Shown piece by piece: positions 22,080 through 47,482 of a stretch of DNA of 64,000 nucleotides. Numbering within the stretch: the stretch's first letter is position 1; every line of letters starts with the position of its first letter. Both the position numbers and the translations under genes were made by a program. The DNA lies in NCBI RefSeq assembly GCF_018861025.1, contig NZ_JAHKQH010000042.1, positions 125,964-189,963 of the forward strand. Reading direction: 5' to 3'. The notes under the pieces were generated by a model that searched no databases, was not told the DNA's origin, and worked only from the letters and a program-made list of their open reading frames with translations. This DNA comes from Psychrosphaera sp. B3R10. Lineage in GTDB: Bacteria > Pseudomonadota > Gammaproteobacteria > Enterobacterales > Alteromonadaceae.

Positions 22080-23093
22080 ATGTTAGAAAACTTTGAACGA
22101 TACCCACTTACATTTGGCAAAACGCCGATAGAACACCTTCCAAGGTTAACCGAAACGTTAGGAGGTAAAGTGGAAATATACGCTAAGCGTGAAGACTGTA
22201 ATTCGGGATTGGCAATGGGCGGCAACAAATTAAGAAAATTAGAATATATCGTACCGGATGCTATTAAGTCTGGAGCCGATACTTTAGTTTCAATTGGCGG
22301 TGTGCAGTCTAATCATACTCGTATGGTCGCGGCGACTGCGGCTAAATTGGGCATGAAATGTAAGTTAGTGCAGGAAAGTTGGGTGCCACATGACGATGCC
22401 GTGTATGACCGAGTCGGTAATATTTTGATGACACGTTTGATGGGAGCCGACTGTCAGATGGTTGATGAAGGTTTTGATATTGGAATACGCAGCAGTTGGG
22501 AAGATGCGATGCAGTCTGTACGTGATGAAGGAGGCATTCCCTACGGAATCCCTGCTGGTGGCTCTGTACACAAATATGGAGGTTTAGGTTATGTTGCTTT
22601 TGCCGAGGAAGTCAGGGAGCAGGAAAAAGAATTAGGATTTACGTTTGATTATATAGTGGTCTGTGTCGTTACTGGTTCAACGCAAGCCGGTATGATTGTT
22701 GGCTTTAAAGTGGATGGTCGAGCGTCAAAAGTGATTGGCATTGACGCTTCAGGCACGGTTGAGCAAACCCGAGAACAAGTAAAACAAATCGCCTATAATA
22801 CCGCTGAATTAATTGGACTTAAAATGGGGATTACGGATGAAGATATACACATTAATCCAGATTATGCCTATCCTGCTTATGGTGTCCCTAGCGCTGAAAC
22901 AAACGAGGCTATGCGACTTGCAGCACGCACTGAGGCGATGATCACAGATCCTGTTTATGAAGGAAAATCAATGCAAGGGTTAATTGACTTAGTGAAAAAA
23001 GATTATTTTCCAATTGGCAGCAAAGTCCTTTATGTCCATTTAGGTGGTGTTCCGGCAATTAACGGATATAGCTACACCTATCGAAATGGTTAG
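22080..23093 (+). CDS. acdS: 1-aminocyclopropane-1-carboxylate (ACC) deaminase
   Basis: PLP enzyme splitting ACC, the plant ethylene precursor, into 2-oxobutanoate and ammonia. 337 residues, collinear with Pseudomonas AcdS one residue shifted. The PLP lysine is K50 in [14 protein letters not shown]. The residues that separate true ACC deaminase from D-cysteine desulfhydrase are both of the deaminase type: E294 in DPVYEGKSM and L321 in VHLGGVPA (E295 and L322 in Pseudomonas). The N-terminus [14 protein letters not shown] is also typical. ATTGGAGACTGT precedes the ATG. In plant-associated bacteria it lowers host ethylene; in a marine bacterium it may feed on algal ACC. Confidence 0.95.
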
Positions 23094-39087: not shown

Positions 39088-41766
39088 ATGGGTGACCTCT
39101 TAGACTCCTATTTCCGTGCAGACTATATGCCGCATGGTCATTGCTATTTTTGGCAGCCGCATATTTTATGGGCGCACGTCATATCAGATCTTGTTATTGC
39201 CGCTGCCTATTTTTCGATACCAATTGCTCTAATTGCATTTATTCGCAATCGACCTGACATTGAACACCGCGCCGTATTTGTCTTATTTTCAGGCTTTATT
39301 TTAATGTGCGGAATTAGCCACTTAATGGGCGTTTGGACTATTTGGCAGGGGGTTTACGGCTTACATGGCATCGCAAAAATTCTCACGGCAATCATCTCTT
39401 TAGTCACTGCTATAAGTTTATATAGGTTAATGCCTCAAATCGTTAAAATCCCAACTTTAGAGCAATACGAAGGGATCATAAATAAATGGTCCGACAGTCA
39501 AAAAGAAAATGAATATTTATCAGGACAACTTAGAAGCCAGAAACTGACCCAGTTTGTTTTAGATTCGATTCCAATTAGCTTACTTTTAGTCGATGACGAA
39601 GGCCGAGTTATTCTCTCAAACTCGTTTTATAACAAAGAATTTAATGACAACGAAGAGTTAAATTCAGTTCATATATCGACGTTATTTCAAGGGAATTCGA
39701 CAGAATTTAAGTGGGAGTTCCACCAAGAAAAATTATTTGATGGCGTCGAAATAGGCGATCAAATTAAGTTTCTAGACAGTGTTCAATACGGAAATAAGCT
39801 AATTCCAGTTGAGGTTGTGATAACGAAAAAAGAATTCCAAGAAAAAATGGCCTTTGTTATTACTATCAAAGACCTGCGCGAAGTCATGCAAATTAAACAG
39901 ATGTTAATTGACAGTAATTCTAGATTTGAGAGGGCCGTTCGGGCTACCGAAGAGGGGCTATGGGAATGGGATCTCAAAGCCAACAAGATGATTTGGTCCC
40001 CTAAATTTTACTCGATGATAGGCGCTAAGTTGGGAGACGAACCGAGTTTTGACAGCTGGTTGTCTAATGTACACCCAGATTACGTTGATGCTGTTAGTCA
40101 TGCACTTAATCAACATTTAGAACATGGCGAACGTTTTTATGTGGAGTATGTGGGTAAAAATGAAACTGGGGAATATGGTTGGTTTGCGATAAATGGTAAT
40201 TCAATTCTAGACATTAATGATGTGCCAACGCTGATTTCGGGCTCTCTACGATATATTGAAGAAGAGAAACAAAAAGAAGAAAAATACTACCAAAAAAACA
40301 AACTTCTCAATGCCATATATGAAGGCTCTAGCAATGCAATTTTTGTTGTTAATCAAATGGAAGATGATGAGTTGTGTTATACCATCTTAAATGACACAGC
40401 GTTAAAAATAGTAAATGTTCCCAAGGATGTCATCATAGGTAAACCGTTTAAACAACTCGCTGGCAGTTTGTTACCACAGGCATTTGTTGATCACGTCTCC
40501 GCTCGATACCGAAGTTGTATTAATTCTAAAAAGACCATCGAATATATTGAGAAAGTTGAGACCATTAGAACATTTTGGTTTCAAACGGCGTTGTACCCAA
40601 TTGCTGATTCTCGAGGCGACGTTTCTATGTTAGTTGGTACCGCGACTGACATTACAGAACTTAAAATCGTCGAAGAAAAATTGGAAAAAAATACGGAATT
40701 TTTGGAAAGTTTGGTTAATAATTCTGTGTGTGGTATGTATATTTTTGATTTAACTACTTATAAAAATACTCTTATCAATGAGGCATACCAAACTATATTA
40801 GGGTATACAATTGATGATTTAGACAAGTGCGACAACCTGTTAGCGTTGTTCCACCCAGACGAACAAGATCTCATTACAACGCATTTGGACAAAATGGCTA
40901 ACTGTAAAGAGGGTGAACTTCATCCGTTGGAGTATCGTTTCAAACATAAAAACGGTGATTGGGTTTGGTGCTATTCGGTTGATTCAATTTTAACTCGTCA
41001 TCCAGACGGAACGCCAAGTCAAGTATTGGGGACGTTTGTTGACGTTACCGAAAAGAATCAATTAGTGGATAAATTAAAAGAATCAAACGAATATTTAGAA
41101 CGTTTTGCGTTTGTCGCATCCCATGATTTACAGGAGCCATTGCGTAAGATAACCGCATTTAGTGACTCCTTGTCTGAGCGTTTAACACCATTGATCGAGA
41201 ATGATGAAGCGTCGATATTCGAATTATCGCGAATGAAGTTAGCCGCACAGCGTATGGGAGCAATGATCCACGATTTACTTAAATTGAGTCGGATCACTTC
41301 CAATTCACTAGATAAAAAGAACATATCTTTACCAAGGTTATTGGAAGAGGTCTGCGATATTTTGGAGTTGTCTATTGCCGATAGGAAAGCCGATGTAAAT
41401 TGGGATAAATCGGTGGGCGACATTGTGGGTGATGAAGGGTTAATTTTGCAAATGATGCAAAATATAATCAGTAACAGTTTGAAGTTTTGCACTGCAGAAA
41501 CAACACCATGTGTTTCTATTCGTTGTAAATATAGGGCGCAGAACGTCGATATTATTATTCAGGATAATGGCATTGGGATCCAAGACTCTGAAATTGCCAA
41601 CGTATTCGAACCGTTTAGGAGGCTGCACGTTAGGGATGAATATGAAGGCAGTGGAATAGGTTTAGCAATTGTGACTCAGATAGTATCAGTTCATAAAGGG
41701 ACAATCGCTTGTGACAGTGAAGTTGGCGTAGGGACGACTATAACTATTTCATTACCAAGGCATTAA
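39088..41766 (+). CDS. PAS sensor histidine kinase with ethylene-receptor-like membrane domain
   Basis: 892 residues. The N-terminal three-helix domain (about 30-114) matches the ethylene-binding domain of plant ETR1 in motif and spacing: D34, Y41 in AYFSIP, F70, I71, C74 and H78 in CGISHL (ETR1 D25, Y32, F61, I62, C65, H69). C74 and H78 are the copper ligands in ETR1. Four PAS-like domains follow (about 155-270, 275-395, 405-530, 533-655), then HisKA with H679 in ASHDLQEPLRK and a HATPase with NIISNSLKF, DNGIGI and GSGIGLAI. There is no receiver domain; the cognate receiver is probably the next gene (3 bp away). Ethylene or another small ligand is a guess. Confidence 0.9.
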   Translation: MGDLLDSYFRADYMPHGHCYFWQPHILWAHVISDLVIAAAYFSIPIALIAFIRNRPDIEHRAVFVLFSGFILMCGISHLMGVWTIWQGVYGLHGIAKILTAIISLVTAISLYRLMPQIVKIPTLEQYEGIINKWSDSQKENEYLSGQLRSQKLTQFVLDSIPISLLLVDDEGRVILSNSFYNKEFNDNEELNSVHISTLFQGNSTEFKWEFHQEKLFDGVEIGDQIKFLDSVQYGNKLIPVEVVITKKEFQEKMAFVITIKDLREVMQIKQMLIDSNSRFERAVRATEEGLWEWDLKANKMIWSPKFYSMIGAKLGDEPSFDSWLSNVHPDYVDAVSHALNQHLEHGERFYVEYVGKNETGEYGWFAINGNSILDINDVPTLISGSLRYIEEEKQKEEKYYQKNKLLNAIYEGSSNAIFVVNQMEDDELCYTILNDTALKIVNVPKDVIIGKPFKQLAGSLLPQAFVDHVSARYRSCINSKKTIEYIEKVETIRTFWFQTALYPIADSRGDVSMLVGTATDITELKIVEEKLEKNTEFLESLVNNSVCGMYIFDLTTYKNTLINEAYQTILGYTIDDLDKCDNLLALFHPDEQDLITTHLDKMANCKEGELHPLEYRFKHKNGDWVWCYSVDSILTRHPDGTPSQVLGTFVDVTEKNQLVDKLKESNEYLERFAFVASHDLQEPLRKITAFSDSLSERLTPLIENDEASIFELSRMKLAAQRMGAMIHDLLKLSRITSNSLDKKNISLPRLLEEVCDILELSIADRKADVNWDKSVGDIVGDEGLILQMMQNIISNSLKFCTAETTPCVSIRCKYRAQNVDIIIQDNGIGIQDSEIANVFEPFRRLHVRDEYEGSGIGLAIVTQIVSVHKGTIACDSEVGVGTTITISLPRH

Positions 41767-41769
41767 AAA

Positions 41770-42180
41770 ATGATTAATTTATTATTGGTAGATGATGATC
41801 AAGACGATATATATTTTTTTAAGCAAGCCGTGAAAAAAGTCGCCCTGCCGATCAATTTAAGTACATATAGAGATGGTAAAGAAATTTGTGATTATTTAGC
41901 GGTAAACAAAGATTGTGAGAATTCGATTGTTTTACTTGATCTAAATATGCCAGGCATTGGTGGTCTTGAAACACTTCGGATTATTAGGCAAAGCTTAGGT
42001 CTCGTAACGTTACCAGTTTTGATCTATACCACTTCTAAAAACGTAAAAGACATTGAAGAAAGCTATAAAATCGGGGCAAGTTCTTATATAAAAAAACTAG
42101 ACACAATAAATGAAATAGCGGCTTTTCTAAAGTCAGTAGTAGGATTTTGGGCAATATATAATAGGGCAATTAACACATGA
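41770..42180 (+). CDS. Single-domain response regulator, Rcp1-like
   Basis: 136 residues, a lone receiver domain. Acidic pocket VDDDQDD at 7-13, phosphoacceptor D57 in LLDLNMPGIGG, conserved Thr/Ser in IYTTSKN and Lys in YIKKLD. It is of the Rcp1 type that pairs with phytochrome-like kinases bearing the SHDLQEPLR H-box, as found in the upstream kinase. Starts 3 bp after the kinase stop and overlaps the next gene by 4 bp (ATGA). Confidence 0.92.
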   Translation: MINLLLVDDDQDDIYFFKQAVKKVALPINLSTYRDGKEICDYLAVNKDCENSIVLLDLNMPGIGGLETLRIIRQSLGLVTLPVLIYTTSKNVKDIEESYKIGASSYIKKLDTINEIAAFLKSVVGFWAIYNRAINT

Positions 42181-43109
42181 ATGTAGATAAAAGTGGATTA
42201 CTCATTTATCTCCTCGAAGACGATACAGAGGACGCCTATTTGATCACGAAAGCGATTCAAAGTGACGTACTTGATAAACATTCGATTGGTGTATTTAAAA
42301 CATTGGAGTCGTTAACAAGTGGCCTTAAAAACTTAATGCCTGAACTAGTTATCATTGATCTAAATGTCCCCGACAGCAAAGGGTTGGATACTATGATTAA
42401 GGTCAAGAAACTCGCACACAATGTACCAATCGTTGTTCTCACCGGGATAGATGATCCTAAAATGGGTAATCAGTTGGTGCAACTTGGGGCTCAGGATTAT
42501 ATCCCTAAGCCTGAAATGACGGCATCATTATTACAAAGGGTAATTCGATTTTCAAAGGAACGGTTTAAGTTAATTAAAGCACTAGAAGAGTCGGCATCGA
42601 GAGATGTTTTGACACGGCTTTACAATCGGGAGGCTTTAGAGTCGAAGTTTGCTGAATTGATAAGTAAAGCAGAACGATATGACGAAAAATTTGGCATCAT
42701 ATTTTTAGATTTAAACAACTTTAAATATTTGAACGACACCTACGGTCATCGAGCTGGAGATACCTTATTAACGCTTTTGGGGGGACGGTTGGAAATTTTC
42801 AGTCGTTCATCTGATTTTATCGCCCGCTATGGCGGTGATGAATTTGTTACGCTATTGCCAAATGTACAAACTATTGATGAGTGTTTGGCCGCAGCAAAAA
42901 GCCAGTTAAGTGTGGTTTGCGATGACTATTTTGTCGAATCAGACGATGGCGTTGCGATCAAAGTTGAAGTCACAGGAAGTATGGGGGTTGCTATTTACGG
43001 CGATCATGGCACGACCAAAAAGCAACTTTTAGAATCCGCTGACACAGCGATGTATGAGGCGAAGACTAAAAAACTAGGCCTATCAGCAGCTAAATCAATC
43101 AAGAGCTAG
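42177..43109 (+). CDS. Response regulator with diguanylate cyclase (REC-GGDEF)
   Basis: 310 residues. Receiver domain (about 8-125) with EDD near residue 15, phosphoacceptor D61 in IIDLNVPDSKG, T in VVLTGIDD and K in YIPKPEM. The GGDEF domain (about 140-305) has an intact active site G219-G-D-E-F223 preceded by the RxxD inhibitory site (RSSD), so it should make cyclic-di-GMP and be product-inhibited. It links the ethylene-receptor-like kinase to c-di-GMP output; phosphotransfer from that kinase is inferred from gene coupling. Confidence 0.93.
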   Translation: MNVDKSGLLIYLLEDDTEDAYLITKAIQSDVLDKHSIGVFKTLESLTSGLKNLMPELVIIDLNVPDSKGLDTMIKVKKLAHNVPIVVLTGIDDPKMGNQLVQLGAQDYIPKPEMTASLLQRVIRFSKERFKLIKALEESASRDVLTRLYNREALESKFAELISKAERYDEKFGIIFLDLNNFKYLNDTYGHRAGDTLLTLLGGRLEIFSRSSDFIARYGGDEFVTLLPNVQTIDECLAAAKSQLSVVCDDYFVESDDGVAIKVEVTGSMGVAIYGDHGTTKKQLLESADTAMYEAKTKKLGLSAAKSIKS

Positions 43110-43234: not shown

Positions 43235-43882
43235 ATGAATAAAATCACATTAAGCCTTTTGATGTTTTTGTGCAGTCTTAGTATTGATGCTAAAACATTA
43301 CATTTTGCTGATCCTGCAGGTACCGCAATAAGTAATGTTGTTGTTAAGTTTTCCAATCAAGCGGTCGACAAGTCATTGACGAAACCCGTTGCTATTATGG
43401 ACCAAGTCGACATTCAATTTGCCCCTTATGTTTTGCTCATAGATAAAGGTCAACAAGTAGCTTTTCCAAATCGAGATGATGTTCGCCATCACGTTTATAG
43501 CTTTTCAAAAACCAAACCGTTTGAAATTAAACTATACAAAAACACACCCACTGACCCCGTGACGTTTTCATCGGCGGGCGTAGTGGAACTTGGCTGTAAT
43601 ATTCACGATAAAATGATTGGTTATATCTATGTGACTGACCAAGCCAATACCTTTTTGAGTGACAGCGAGGGTAATGTCAATTTGCCAGAATCGATGGGGC
43701 TTGCATCGACAATGGAATTTCAATATTGGCATCCGCGTCTGTCCACTAATCGACTCGAGCACAAAAAAGCAAATTTGTCAGACCCGATAGAAGCGACACA
43801 AATCATTACCTTATCCTTGTTAAACAATGACGCTTCAACAAAACAACAAAAACGGAAAACTCGTTTTGGGAAAACATATTAG
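43235..43882 (+). CDS. Periplasmic cupredoxin (methylamine utilization protein-like)
   Basis: 215 residues with a signal peptide (about 1-19, cleavage after SIDA). The cupredoxin core carries a type 1 copper site: H85/H86 in VRHHVYSF, then C121, H124 and M127 in ELGCNIHDKMIGYIYV. The basic tail KQQKRKTRFGK is exposed. It is annotated elsewhere as methylamine utilization protein, though no methylamine genes are present. It heads a four-gene overlapping run; its stop overlaps the next GTG by one base (TAGTG). A role as electron donor or copper sensor for its neighbours is possible. Confidence 0.85.
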   Translation: MNKITLSLLMFLCSLSIDAKTLHFADPAGTAISNVVVKFSNQAVDKSLTKPVAIMDQVDIQFAPYVLLIDKGQQVAFPNRDDVRHHVYSFSKTKPFEIKLYKNTPTDPVTFSSAGVVELGCNIHDKMIGYIYVTDQANTFLSDSEGNVNLPESMGLASTMEFQYWHPRLSTNRLEHKKANLSDPIEATQIITLSLLNNDASTKQQKRKTRFGKTY

Positions 43883-46212
43883 TGTTATTTAAAAATTCAT
43901 TAAAGTTTAGAATAAACAAGCTCGTTGTTAGCATCGTTTTGTTGATCTCAATCGTTATTTTAATGGCGATTTGGTTTGCAACCAGTCGACATGCCGATAC
44001 GCAGTTGTCCCGTGAATTAGAAGTTGGTCATAGTGTCTTTGTAAACTCACTTGAAAGTCGTGAAAACCTGTTAGTTAATGCTGCTACGGTTTTAACCGAA
44101 GACTTTGGTTTTAAACAAGCCATCGCCACGTTAGATAGCGCAACGATAGACAGTATGCTGAATAACCACAGCGAACGTATTTCAGCGGATCTTATGCTGG
44201 TGATGTCATTAGACGCTAAAGTCATTGGCAAAACGGATACTCTAACGACAGATAGCGGCAGTTACCTTACACCAGAAATTTATGATAATGTTTTGCGCGA
44301 TGGTGGTTTAATTACGTTTAATTTGATTAATGGCAAACTCTACCAATCTTTATTTCTTACCGTCGACGCACCAAACCCTATCGCCATAGCTATGATAGGG
44401 TTTGAAATGGATCAAAAACTCGTTGACCGATTTAGCCAATTAACGACCCTCGATATTACCCTTTTATTTGACCAAGAAAAGTCGGCATATTTAACCACAT
44501 TGTCGCCGGCAGACGCTGAAATCGTACTGCAATCAAATTTACCTTTATTAGAAAACGCTAAAAAATTTAGTCGCTTGCATCTAACAACTCAGGCTTTCAG
44601 ACTGGAAAACTACCCACATTTCACAGGTTATGTGATGCTAAGTCATAACACCGATCTGTTATTTAAAGAGTTTTATACGCTTATTAAAGACGTTGCCGTA
44701 ATTTCTGTTATCGCCGTATTTGTTGCGCTATTACTCGGGGTTGGTTTTTCTAAAAATGTGACAAAACCTCTGGAACGCCTCTCTATACTAGCGAAACGTA
44801 TATCCCGTGGTGACTACCAAAATACAATTGAACTAAACACCAGCACGACTGAAATTGCTGACTTATCTGTTGCTTTTAAACAGATGCAGTTGAACATTTC
44901 AGAACGTGAAAAAACGATTAGCTATAACGCTACTCACGATATGGTAACTGGCCTTTATAACCGCACTCGATTGCTTGAACTCGTTCAGGAAGGCTTAGAA
45001 AACAACGGTGCTTTTCAGGTCATTGCAATTCAGATAAATGGATTTAGAGAGCTGAATGAGACTTTCGGTTATAAAGTTGGTGATGAGTGTTTGCAATACC
45101 TCGCTGGTGAAATTAAAACGAAGGGCGGCTGTACAGCGAGAATTGCTGGCGGGGAAGTTATTTGGCTCCCCAATCAAACCGTGACGCTAGAGAACATCGT
45201 CGATATTCAATCAGAAATGGAACGTTCAATATTGGTTTCGCAGGTAAAAGTGCGGATCAAATTGGTCATTGGCATTGTTAGTGTCAACGACAGTAATAAT
45301 AAAAATAGCGTGTTTGACAAAGCTGAAGACGTGATCCGAAGTTTAAGTATTGCAGCAAGTCATGCTCGGACAAAAAGTAACAATATTCAATATTATCTGC
45401 CTGAGCAGGAAGCCGCCTATATTCAACGAATCGAAGTTTTATATGAATTACAGCACCTATTAGAAAGTGACAATAAAGACGAACTGGCAATGTTCTATCA
45501 ACCTAAATTGGCATTAAGCAACAATAGCGTTGATAAAATGGAAGCCTTGATCCGCTGGAATAGTAAAAAATTAGGCTTTGTTTCGCCAGAGATGTTTATC
45601 CCAATTGCAGAAAGTGCCGGTATCATTAAGTCTTTAACACAGTGGGTTATTCGACGTGTTATCAGAGATTTACATCACTGGCAATTACCTGAACAACAAA
45701 TAGCAATTAACCTCTCTGCACAGGACATAGTGTGTGGGGACTTAATTGAATATATTGATGATTGCTTAAAAGAGTTTGATATTTCAATTAATCAATTGTC
45801 GTTTGAAATAACTGAAAGCGACATCATGTCAGATCCACAAAGAGCCATTGCGCAACTCAATTTGTTTGTCGAAAAAGGGTTTTCGTTGGCCATCGACGAC
45901 TTTGGTACAGGCCACTCATCGTTGTCTTATATTAAAGACTTCCCGGTGCAAACATTAAAAATTGATAAAGCGTTTATTCTACAACTTGATCAAAATGAAG
46001 ACGATTTAACCATTGTGAAGTGTATTATTTCCCTGGCAACAAACTTTGGATTGTCTGTGGTGGCAGAAGGGATTGAAAATAAAGCATCGTTGGAGATATT
46101 GCGTCAATTAGGTTGCCAGTATATCCAAGGTTATTACATTAGCCGGCCTATGCCAGCCTCAGAGGTGACCGGTTGGTTAGCGCAATATCACGATAAAAAG
46201 GTGCAAGAATGA
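43882..46212 (+). CDS. Membrane HAMP-GGDEF-EAL protein, c-di-GMP phosphodiesterase
   Basis: 776 residues. Transmembrane helices at about 13-33 and 270-292 enclose a periplasmic sensor (double-Cache-like, with FNLINGKLYQSLFLTVDAPNP). HAMP (about 290-340) is followed by a degenerate GGDEF domain, where the signature reads AGGEV (422-426), so no cyclase activity is expected. The EAL domain (about 515-765) keeps its motifs: E554-A-L, NLSAQDIV, FEITESD, IDDFGTGHSSLSYI and KIDKAFI. It should degrade c-di-GMP, opposing the REC-GGDEF protein upstream. Starts at GTG overlapping the cupredoxin stop; ends overlapping DUF3034 by 4 bp. Confidence 0.92.
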   Translation: MLFKNSLKFRINKLVVSIVLLISIVILMAIWFATSRHADTQLSRELEVGHSVFVNSLESRENLLVNAATVLTEDFGFKQAIATLDSATIDSMLNNHSERISADLMLVMSLDAKVIGKTDTLTTDSGSYLTPEIYDNVLRDGGLITFNLINGKLYQSLFLTVDAPNPIAIAMIGFEMDQKLVDRFSQLTTLDITLLFDQEKSAYLTTLSPADAEIVLQSNLPLLENAKKFSRLHLTTQAFRLENYPHFTGYVMLSHNTDLLFKEFYTLIKDVAVISVIAVFVALLLGVGFSKNVTKPLERLSILAKRISRGDYQNTIELNTSTTEIADLSVAFKQMQLNISEREKTISYNATHDMVTGLYNRTRLLELVQEGLENNGAFQVIAIQINGFRELNETFGYKVGDECLQYLAGEIKTKGGCTARIAGGEVIWLPNQTVTLENIVDIQSEMERSILVSQVKVRIKLVIGIVSVNDSNNKNSVFDKAEDVIRSLSIAASHARTKSNNIQYYLPEQEAAYIQRIEVLYELQHLLESDNKDELAMFYQPKLALSNNSVDKMEALIRWNSKKLGFVSPEMFIPIAESAGIIKSLTQWVIRRVIRDLHHWQLPEQQIAINLSAQDIVCGDLIEYIDDCLKEFDISINQLSFEITESDIMSDPQRAIAQLNLFVEKGFSLAIDDFGTGHSSLSYIKDFPVQTLKIDKAFILQLDQNEDDLTIVKCIISLATNFGLSVVAEGIENKASLEILRQLGCQYIQGYYISRPMPASEVTGWLAQYHDKKVQE

Positions 46213-47063
46213 CAAGTTGGAAAACGATATTAAGCGCAATTTTATTGCCGACTTTGTTTGTCGGGTCATTATACGCGGGGACCAATGACGGCAAGTTGCT
46301 AGCAACGGCTGGCGTAACACAAATTGAGGGGTCTGCAGGCGGTGGACTTGTACCATGGGCCGTCATATCAGGTTATGGTTCGCGTGACGAAGTCGCGGCA
46401 ACAGTGTCGACAACCCAAGTTTCAACCACCGATTACCGTTTAGATGTGACCAGTGCAGCAATTGGGCTCTATGATAAAGTCGAACTTAGTTATGCTAAAC
46501 AACGCTTTACATTAAGTTCGCTGGGTGGTGATATTCAACAGGAAGTCTTTGGTGCCAAGGTAAAATTATACGGTGATGCCGTATACGGTGTTTGGCCGCA
46601 GGTAAGCGCAGGTCTTCATCATAAACGCTTGAAAGACTATGTTATTGCAGATGCAGTAGGCGCTAAAGAGTCCTCTTCAAATACAGATTACTACTTAGCT
46701 GCAACTAAGGTTCATTTAGGTTTAGCGGCTGGCTTTAACGTTGTTTGGAATGTCACCGGCCGGTTGACTAAGGCTAATCAAACGGGCTTTTTAGGGTATG
46801 GGTCCGTGTCGGATACCTCTCATAATTTGATGATGGAAGGCTCCGCCGGAATATTGCTTTCAAGAAACTTAGTCATTGGTGTTGAATATCGACAAAAGCC
46901 CGATAATTTAGGTCTGGGTGAGGACGATTGGTATGACATATTTGTGGCGTATGTGCCGAACAAAAATGTCAGTTTAACGCTGGCCTGGGCAAAACTCGGC
47001 AGTATTGCCGGGGCAACAGGTCAAGAAGGTTTATTTCTTAATTTAACGGGGAAACTTTGGTGA
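46209..47063 (+). CDS. DUF3034 family outer-membrane protein
   Basis: 284 residues with a signal peptide (about 1-23, SLYA cleavage). Alternating hydrophobic beta strands and a terminal aromatic residue (LTGKLW) suggest an outer-membrane beta-barrel. The family-like N-terminus GKLLATAGVTQIEGSAGGGLVPWAVISGYG is clear. Function of DUF3034 unknown. The gene is coupled at both ends: its ATG overlaps the EAL gene stop (ATGA), and its stop overlaps the haemoglobin ATG (TGATG). Confidence 0.85.
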   Translation: MTSWKTILSAILLPTLFVGSLYAGTNDGKLLATAGVTQIEGSAGGGLVPWAVISGYGSRDEVAATVSTTQVSTTDYRLDVTSAAIGLYDKVELSYAKQRFTLSSLGGDIQQEVFGAKVKLYGDAVYGVWPQVSAGLHHKRLKDYVIADAVGAKESSSNTDYYLAATKVHLGLAAGFNVVWNVTGRLTKANQTGFLGYGSVSDTSHNLMMEGSAGILLSRNLVIGVEYRQKPDNLGLGEDDWYDIFVAYVPNKNVSLTLAWAKLGSIAGATGQEGLFLNLTGKLW

Positions 47064-47482
47064 TGAGTGGAAAAGTATGGGGCGTTATCATTCTCACCGC
47101 AGCGTTAACGGCGTGTGTAACCACAAATGTTACGTTATATCAGCAGTTAGGTGGCGACAAAAAAGTTGAGTTGATTGTCGATAATTTTATTGAAGAGATT
47201 CAGTTTAACAAAAAGATATTTCAATATTTTACTGAATCGGATGTCGATCGGTTTCGCGAAAAATTAATTGAACATATCTGCGTCATTGCAGATGGTAATT
47301 GCCAATATACGGGGGATACGATGCAACAAGTACATGAAGGTATGAATATCACAGAGACTGATTTTAATACCACCGTTGACCTGCTCATTAGCGCAATGAC
47401 TAAGGCCGATGTGCCACATAGGATCCAAAACCAATTATTACAACGATTAGCTAAATTACGTCACGAGATTTTGTACCTGTAG
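47063..47482 (+). CDS. Truncated haemoglobin lipoprotein (group 1)
   Basis: 139 residues from ATG 47063. Lipobox LTAC with C18, so it should be membrane-anchored in the periplasm, unusual for a globin. The globin part starts at TLYQQLGGDKKVELIVDNF and continues with FFTESD-like helix C/CD and the candidate proximal histidine H91 in QQVHEGMNIT. The usual paired glycines of group 1 are partly kept. It would bind O2, NO or another gas on haem. Last gene of the cupredoxin-EAL-DUF3034 run; a bidirectional hairpin follows. Confidence 0.87.
   Translation: MSGKVWGVIILTAALTACVTTNVTLYQQLGGDKKVELIVDNFIEEIQFNKKIFQYFTESDVDRFREKLIEHICVIADGNCQYTGDTMQQVHEGMNITETDFNTTVDLLISAMTKADVPHRIQNQLLQRLAKLRHEILYL

Follow-up and report, generated by a model that had tools for sequence, protein, structure and literature searches.

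A likely ethylene-receptor-type two-component system with a predicted cyclic di-GMP output in Psychrosphaera sp. B3R10, and the recurring link of its sensor domain to cyclic di-GMP genes across the family

The stretch of DNA analysed here (64,000 nucleotides (nt) of Psychrosphaera sp. B3R10, contig NZ_JAHKQH010000042.1, positions 125,964 to 189,963 of the forward strand; hereafter the window) encodes a sensor histidine kinase with an N-terminal ethylene-binding domain (EBD) of the kind known from the plant receptor ETR1. Its gene is followed by genes for a single-domain response regulator and for a diguanylate cyclase with a receiver domain of its own (receiver-GGDEF; Table 1). We consider it likely that the three genes form a bacterial ethylene-receptor-type two-component system controlling cyclic di-GMP (c-di-GMP). 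Judged by its sequence, the N-terminus of the kinase is a true ethylene-receptor domain, and the link between such domains and c-di-GMP genes recurs across the family (Alteromonadaceae).

The kinase N-terminus matched Pfam ETR1_N (PF25487) with 123.7 bits (3.6e-36; cut-off 27). Assignment by profile to another family, or absence of the Cys/His site, would have spoken against an ETR1-type domain; neither was observed. A sequence-only reading had proposed an ETR1-type domain from the positions of D34, Y41, F70, I71, C74 and H78. All six residues are where it placed them, I44 and P45 are present too, and because the Pfam match lies so far above its cut-off, the ETR1-like spacing is not due to chance. 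The study of Wang et al. 2006 is said to have found that ethylene binding by ETR1 needs D25, Y32, I35, P36, I62, C65 and H69. The seven corresponding positions in the window kinase are D34, Y41, I44, P45, I71, C74 and H78, and the signalling lysine (K97) is also present. Seven residues for ethylene binding in ETR1 are likewise given, and D25, C65, H69 and K91 named, in the available parts of two later papers (PMC11819568, PMC6944256). Over 123 residues the EBD is 40% identical to a plasmid open reading frame of Azospirillum brasilense Sp7 (525 residues), the length and N-terminus of which fit the receptor AzoEtr1 and a primer in PMC11819568. The spacing from C74 to K97, 23 residues, is identical to that from C75 to K98 in AzoEtr1. 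Residues 1-130 of AzoEtr1, expressed in yeast, reportedly showed saturable 14C-ethylene binding (PMC11819568), which supports reading the window domain as one of the ethylene type.

Residue conservation was counted over 110 aligned EBDs. C74, H78 and Y41 were retained in 106 each, K97 in 105, D34 in 103, I71 in 100, I44 in 99 and P45 in 91. The Cys or the His is gone in few relatives (loci L168, L169, L180, L181, L202 and L203). Two of these are hybrid kinases with decayed EBDs (L168:3903-7637 and L169:6676-10002); the Cys is gone in both and the His in L169 as well. AlphaFold (8 sequences) predicted long helices at residues 24-54, 61-87 and 90-119 of the window EBD, with a mean predicted local distance difference test score (pLDDT) of 75 and a predicted template modelling score (pTM) of 0.60; a three-helix transmembrane topology fits this model of moderate quality. 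No solved EBD relative was found in the PDB by phmmer, and Foldseek gave no PDB match at E <= 0.001. The best viral fold match was to A0A8E4UZR7 (6.4e-5), an entry listed without a name.

Behind ETR1_N follow three to four PAS domains, HisKA and HATPase_c. The four PAS modules of the sequence-only reading were recovered by a custom hidden Markov model (HMM), which was trained partly on the window kinase itself; the NCBIfam sensory-box model found three such stretches. Its HisKA/HATPase assignment was borne out, with a clear HATPase and a weak Pfam match to HisKA (27.6 bits, cut-off 26.9). That a separate receiver, called Rcp1-like in that reading and assigned here to Response_reg, and a diguanylate cyclase come next is also correct, and the cyclase has in addition the receiver domain that had gone unmentioned. 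The kinase and receiver genes are separated by 3 nt, and the receiver and receiver-GGDEF genes overlap by 4 nt.

For comparison, 21 cassettes were picked for having a kinase, a receiver and a receiver-GGDEF, 20 of them from the family and one being L049 (same order). H679, N796, D826, G828 and G856 of the kinase are retained in all 21, as are D9, D57 and K109 of the single-domain receiver and D61, K111, R210, D213 and G220-F223 of the receiver-GGDEF; G219 is retained in 20, one protein reading AGDEF. Some cassettes have conservative substitutions beside the receiver sites. The mean pairwise identity is 63% for the EBD, 26% for the linker and first PAS domain, 46, 35 and 40% for the second to fourth PAS domains and 48% for HisKA-HATPase. 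The EBD is thus the best-conserved segment of the kinase, which suggests selection on the ligand domain. The window's genome encodes a second receiver-GGDEF (L266:7540-8484), 48% identical to that of the cassette and with no kinase directly adjoining.

ETR1_N scored above its cut-off in 69 of 295 family genomes, 12 of 369 genomes of the class and 28 of 398 of the phylum, the window's genome, with a single EBD above cut-off, being included in each of the three draws. The difference between family and class has a p-value of 1.5e-15, calculated from related genomes and overlapping draws. For the neighbourhood survey, in which domains were assigned by custom-built HMMs, 76 of 77 family places were used (the window and 75 regions of up to ~14 kb; a 28.8-bit fragment in genome G009 was excluded). 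Outside the family 35 places were taken and 34 kept, L183 being dropped because it scored below cut-off and had no EBD by custom HMM; excluded from this sample were G074 and G829 (above cut-off) and G062, G082, G190, G281 and G036 (below). A c-di-GMP gene was counted as linked if it lay on the same strand and began no more than 700 nt downstream. Seventeen of the 76 family EBDs are fused to GGDEF and 33 have a c-di-GMP gene downstream by this rule; in two more it lies farther on, past a kinase gene with a disrupted reading frame in the assembly. Four others face an opposite-strand receiver-PAS-PAS-GGDEF-EAL gene, and five have a c-di-GMP gene upstream in the cluster. Fused or downstream cases together make up 52/76 in the family (18 of 25 genera) versus 4/34 outside (p = 2.4e-8), where one further EBD has a convergent c-di-GMP gene.

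Among the unfused family proteins alone, 35 of 59 (12 of 21 genera) have a c-di-GMP gene downstream. As controls we used non-EBD kinases matched by the C-terminal part of the window kinase, of which 2 of 20 in the family (L271 and L277) have such a gene; the region of another, L272, ends at a contig end. Best-hit non-EBD kinases (L241-L263, n = 23) had a GGDEF gene downstream (~1.5 kb) in 0 of 14 family cases and in 1 of 9 outside (L251), these nine being excluded from every Fisher test. The tests gave 1.7e-4 for 35/59 against 2/20 and 1.5e-7 against 2/34.

The domain also occurs in other architectures with c-di-GMP enzymes. A tree of 113 EBDs, made by a quick method from few columns and with many open forks (L168, L169, L180 and L181 omitted), places the window protein in a group of 38 (support 99). 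The EBD-GGDEF fusions, 17 in all, fall together on the same side of one branch (support 96). Two further groups, each with support 100, hold four short EBD-kinases with a receiver-GGDEF-EAL downstream and six stand-alone EBDs. The fusions (L137:3925-4896 and 16 other loci) are one-component proteins of 318-336 residues, in which the custom HMMs found neither PAS nor kinase domains. Every one of them has GGEEF, an RxxD I-site and all eight key EBD residues; in the two that were scanned, Pfam confirmed ETR1_N and GGDEF. Outside the family, L171 and L174 encode EBD-PAS-PAS-GGDEF-EAL proteins, the former without the RxxD I-site motif. The stand-alone EBD proteins (182-184 residues; L158:945-6019 and L147, L157, L159, L161 and L162) are flanked by two kinase genes, with a receiver-GGDEF-EAL gene upstream in five of the six loci, which suggests a split receptor. 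We see about an even chance that the EBD serves this family generally as a gas-responsive switch of c-di-GMP, with several separate lineages wired to it by receiver-GGDEF, receiver-GGDEF-EAL, hybrid relay or a one-component EBD-GGDEF of ~323 residues, where copper-bound ethylene would gate the cyclase with no phosphorelay.

The output of the cassette is not tied to this one sensor. Two genomes of the window's genus (G001 and G003) have a PAS-kinase/receiver/receiver-GGDEF cassette without an EBD, with kinase C-termini 51% and 50% identical. By eye, the swapped N-terminus resembles a membrane sensor of two helices whose outer part is helical; in one such kinase (L264), Pfam found PAS and kinase domains only. 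In a tree of 33 kinases, made by a quick method and with its root placed on L049, both are nested in a 20-row group, the other 18 members of which bear an EBD (support 97). The output module thus accepts different sensors. The wiring to c-di-GMP claimed in the sequence-only reading therefore holds in that the link recurs across the family, and needs amending in that the cassette is not exclusive to the EBD sensor.

Several points weigh against ethylene control of c-di-GMP by the window system. The cassettes of G001 and G003, with their non-EBD N-terminus, imply an output that is not ethylene-specific, and signals of other kinds may enter through the PAS domains. By the linkage rule, 15 of the 76 family EBDs have no nearby c-di-GMP gene, and neither do 29 of the 34 outside the family. 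The 20 controls were chosen by hand and scored by eye. The two sensor-swapped kinases were omitted from the control; with them it becomes 4/36 and the Fisher value 3.5e-6. All these statistics count related proteins as independent, so that the p-values are guides and not strict probabilities. In 24 of 30 family genomes the receiver-GGDEF query had at least ~46 scored matches, and this abundance of GGDEF and receiver proteins raises the odds of such neighbours. A promoter scan was no richer than shuffled sequence (15 sites versus 16.4) and thus uninformative, and we infer co-transcription of the three genes. Binding, phosphotransfer and co-transcription are predictions in the case of the window protein.

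With these points in mind, we propose that the three-helix membrane domain, probably dimeric as in plants, would hold Cu(I) through C74 and H78, with D34 and K97 connecting this site with signalling. The ligand, either ethylene or a comparable small molecule that binds copper, would enter from the membrane and alter the kinase through the PAS chain. Phosphate would then pass from H679 to D57 of the single-domain receiver, to D61 of the cyclase receiver, or to both, and c-di-GMP output, and hence attachment or motility, would track the gas. Copper and ethylene binding by the window EBD, the partners in phosphotransfer, the direction of the effect and any phenotype are all putative at this stage.

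The kinase could instead be an ethylene receptor with the single-domain receiver, acting elsewhere (for instance on motility), as its true target and the receiver-GGDEF as a mere neighbour. The A. brasilense receptor is paired with a 135-residue receiver without output domain (PMC11819568), and L047, L050 and L165 have an EBD-kinase and a receiver with no adjoining cyclase. We nevertheless hold this to be unlikely, as the receiver and receiver-GGDEF genes overlap, a receiver-GGDEF follows in many genera and the EBD-GGDEF fusions exist without any receiver. That the EBD senses Cu(I) availability at the membrane, ethylene binding being a by-product of the copper site, is a doubtful alternative. 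C74 and H78, the putative copper ligands, are conserved (each in 106 of 110 EBDs) and a cupredoxin-like gene adjoins (43235-43882; recognised by eye, no Pfam match); however, that gene has no match in 17 EBD loci (L034-L050, which extend from ~4 kb upstream of the EBD to ~10 kb downstream of it, contig permitting), and other residues among the seven binding positions are kept too (Y41 in 106, I71 in 100, I44 in 99, P45 in 91). An EBD reduced chiefly to anchoring the protein in the membrane or dimerising it, with the PAS domains sensing redox, light or small molecules, would suit the three to four PAS domains between EBD and kinase, the few relatives without Cys or His and the replaceable N-terminus, but is improbable given that the EBD is the best-conserved segment (63% versus 26-48%) and that the 17 fusions, PAS-less by custom HMM, keep all eight key residues.

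Table 1. Features of the window, with positions counted from its first letter
Feature	Position	Strand	Evidence or remark
Sensor histidine kinase, 892 residues	39088..41766	+	Open reading frame, ATG start; Pfam; custom HMMs
Ethylene-binding domain (EBD), kinase residues 26-120	39163..39447	+	ETR1_N; residue counts; helices; AzoEtr1 identity
Single-domain response regulator, 136 residues, likely phospho-acceptor D57	41770..42180	+	Response_reg 9.9e-16
Receiver-GGDEF diguanylate cyclase, 310 residues, likely phospho-acceptor D61	42177..43109	+	GGDEF 3.9e-41, Response_reg 1.4e-15
Cyclase motifs	I-site RxxD, residues 210-213; GGDEF, residues 219-223	+	
1-Aminocyclopropane-1-carboxylate (ACC) deaminase	22080-23093	+	TIGR01274 548.5 bits (cut-off 392); PDB 1rqx 2.1e-148
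Cluster next door: cupredoxin-like (by eye, no Pfam match), HAMP-GGDEF-EAL, DUF3034, globin	43235-47482	+	Tightly packed

Some other genes of the window may bear on a possible source of the signal. ACC deaminase, encoded ~16 kb from the EBD kinase, destroys the precursor of ethylene. TIGR01274 scored above cut-off in only 2 of the 295 family genomes (G000 and G476), and with this rarity the gene was perhaps acquired. It was rejected as a co-evolving partner of the EBD: the ETR1_N-positive genomes do not include G476, and no correlation can be claimed. The DUF3034 and globin genes, like the cupredoxin-like gene, had no match in loci L034-L050, and copper supply by the latter is unsupported. The window also encodes a relative of a GH167 hydrolase (PDB 9whd, 1.1e-144), a GH2 enzyme and a galactonate-dehydratase-like enzyme that scores below its model cut-off; together they suggest that the host uses algal galactans. 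Ethylene or ACC could possibly come from seaweed, and the red alga Pyropia is reported to respond to ACC independently of ethylene (PMC7028691).

Relatives of the EBD were also sought in viruses. A pattern scan of IMG/VR found none; tblastn of annotated phages matched the EBD in six Maribacter phages, or eight records, since two of the phages were deposited twice, showing that the scan misses distant copies. The matching genes of phages Colly_1 (L322:2432-3301) and Molly_1 (L324:2432-3301) lie directly upstream of an N-acetylmuramoyl-L-alanine amidase gene, and one may guess at a membrane role at lysis. In the Colly_1 protein (289 residues, ETR1_N 3e-16) both copper-site residues, Cys and His, are present, but D34 is replaced by N and K97 by D. 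The same paired change is found in L174:7506-10076, as would be expected of positions in contact with each other; for ETR1 a D25-K91 contact has been modelled.

Ethylene sensing by bacteria is little explored. The receptor-cyclase cassette and the minimal EBD-GGDEF fusion would let the connection of a gaseous hormone with biofilm control be tested directly, and the two-domain fusion protein is small and suited to the biochemistry of a copper/ethylene switch. If seaweeds are the habitat of the hosts, as we infer, ethylene could act in signalling between the algae and the bacteria on them.

Bacterial ethylene receptors are already known, and the window EBD adds another member. A 2015 paper, quoting an older survey, called EBDs common in plants and cyanobacteria and generally absent from other bacteria (PMC4686702). 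The sequence-only reading, too, had EBDs known from cyanobacteria, which is right for Slr1212 and incomplete, since EBDs outside that group had already been published from Azospirillum (PMC11819568). Our literature search found no paper joining ethylene receptor, gammaproteobacteria and ethylene-binding, and no description of a conserved EBD/cyclase operon or EBD-GGDEF fusion, of which earlier mention is possible (e.g. Carlew et al. 2019). In Arabidopsis ETR1, D25, C65 and H69 are spaced like D34, C74 and H78 of the window kinase, and K91 is the counterpart of K97 (ETR1 numbering from PMC11819568). By that numbering C65 and K91 are 26 residues apart, compared with 23 from C74 to K97. The plant receptor also has a different output, to our knowledge without c-di-GMP. 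By description, SynEtr1/UirS (Slr1212) of Synechocystis resembles the window kinase: it is an EBD kinase, response regulators are its partners, and it affects motility and biofilm (PMC5812497, PMC11819568). A difference is that SynEtr1/UirS doubles as a UV-A photoreceptor and acts with the regulators UirR and LsiR (PMC5812497). The EBD gene for GeiEtr2 of Geitlerinema PCC 7105 is grouped with a predicted diguanylate cyclase gene, as in the window; GeiEtr2, however, is a cyanobacterial protein of 1025 residues likened to SynEtr1, and the available text describes one genome and notes no fusion or recurrence (PMC6682694). AzoEtr1 with AzoRR-Etr1 shares with the window system an N-terminal EBD in which the seven binding residues and the lysine are all present, as well as PAS, a kinase and a single-domain receiver encoded directly downstream, whereas AzoEtr1 has one PAS domain in its 525 residues and no adjoining cyclase is named in the accessible parts of the report (PMC11819568). 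In that system, ethylene affects biofilm and c-di-GMP, the level of which falls after ethylene in A. brasilense through a signalling pathway there called unknown (PMC11819568).

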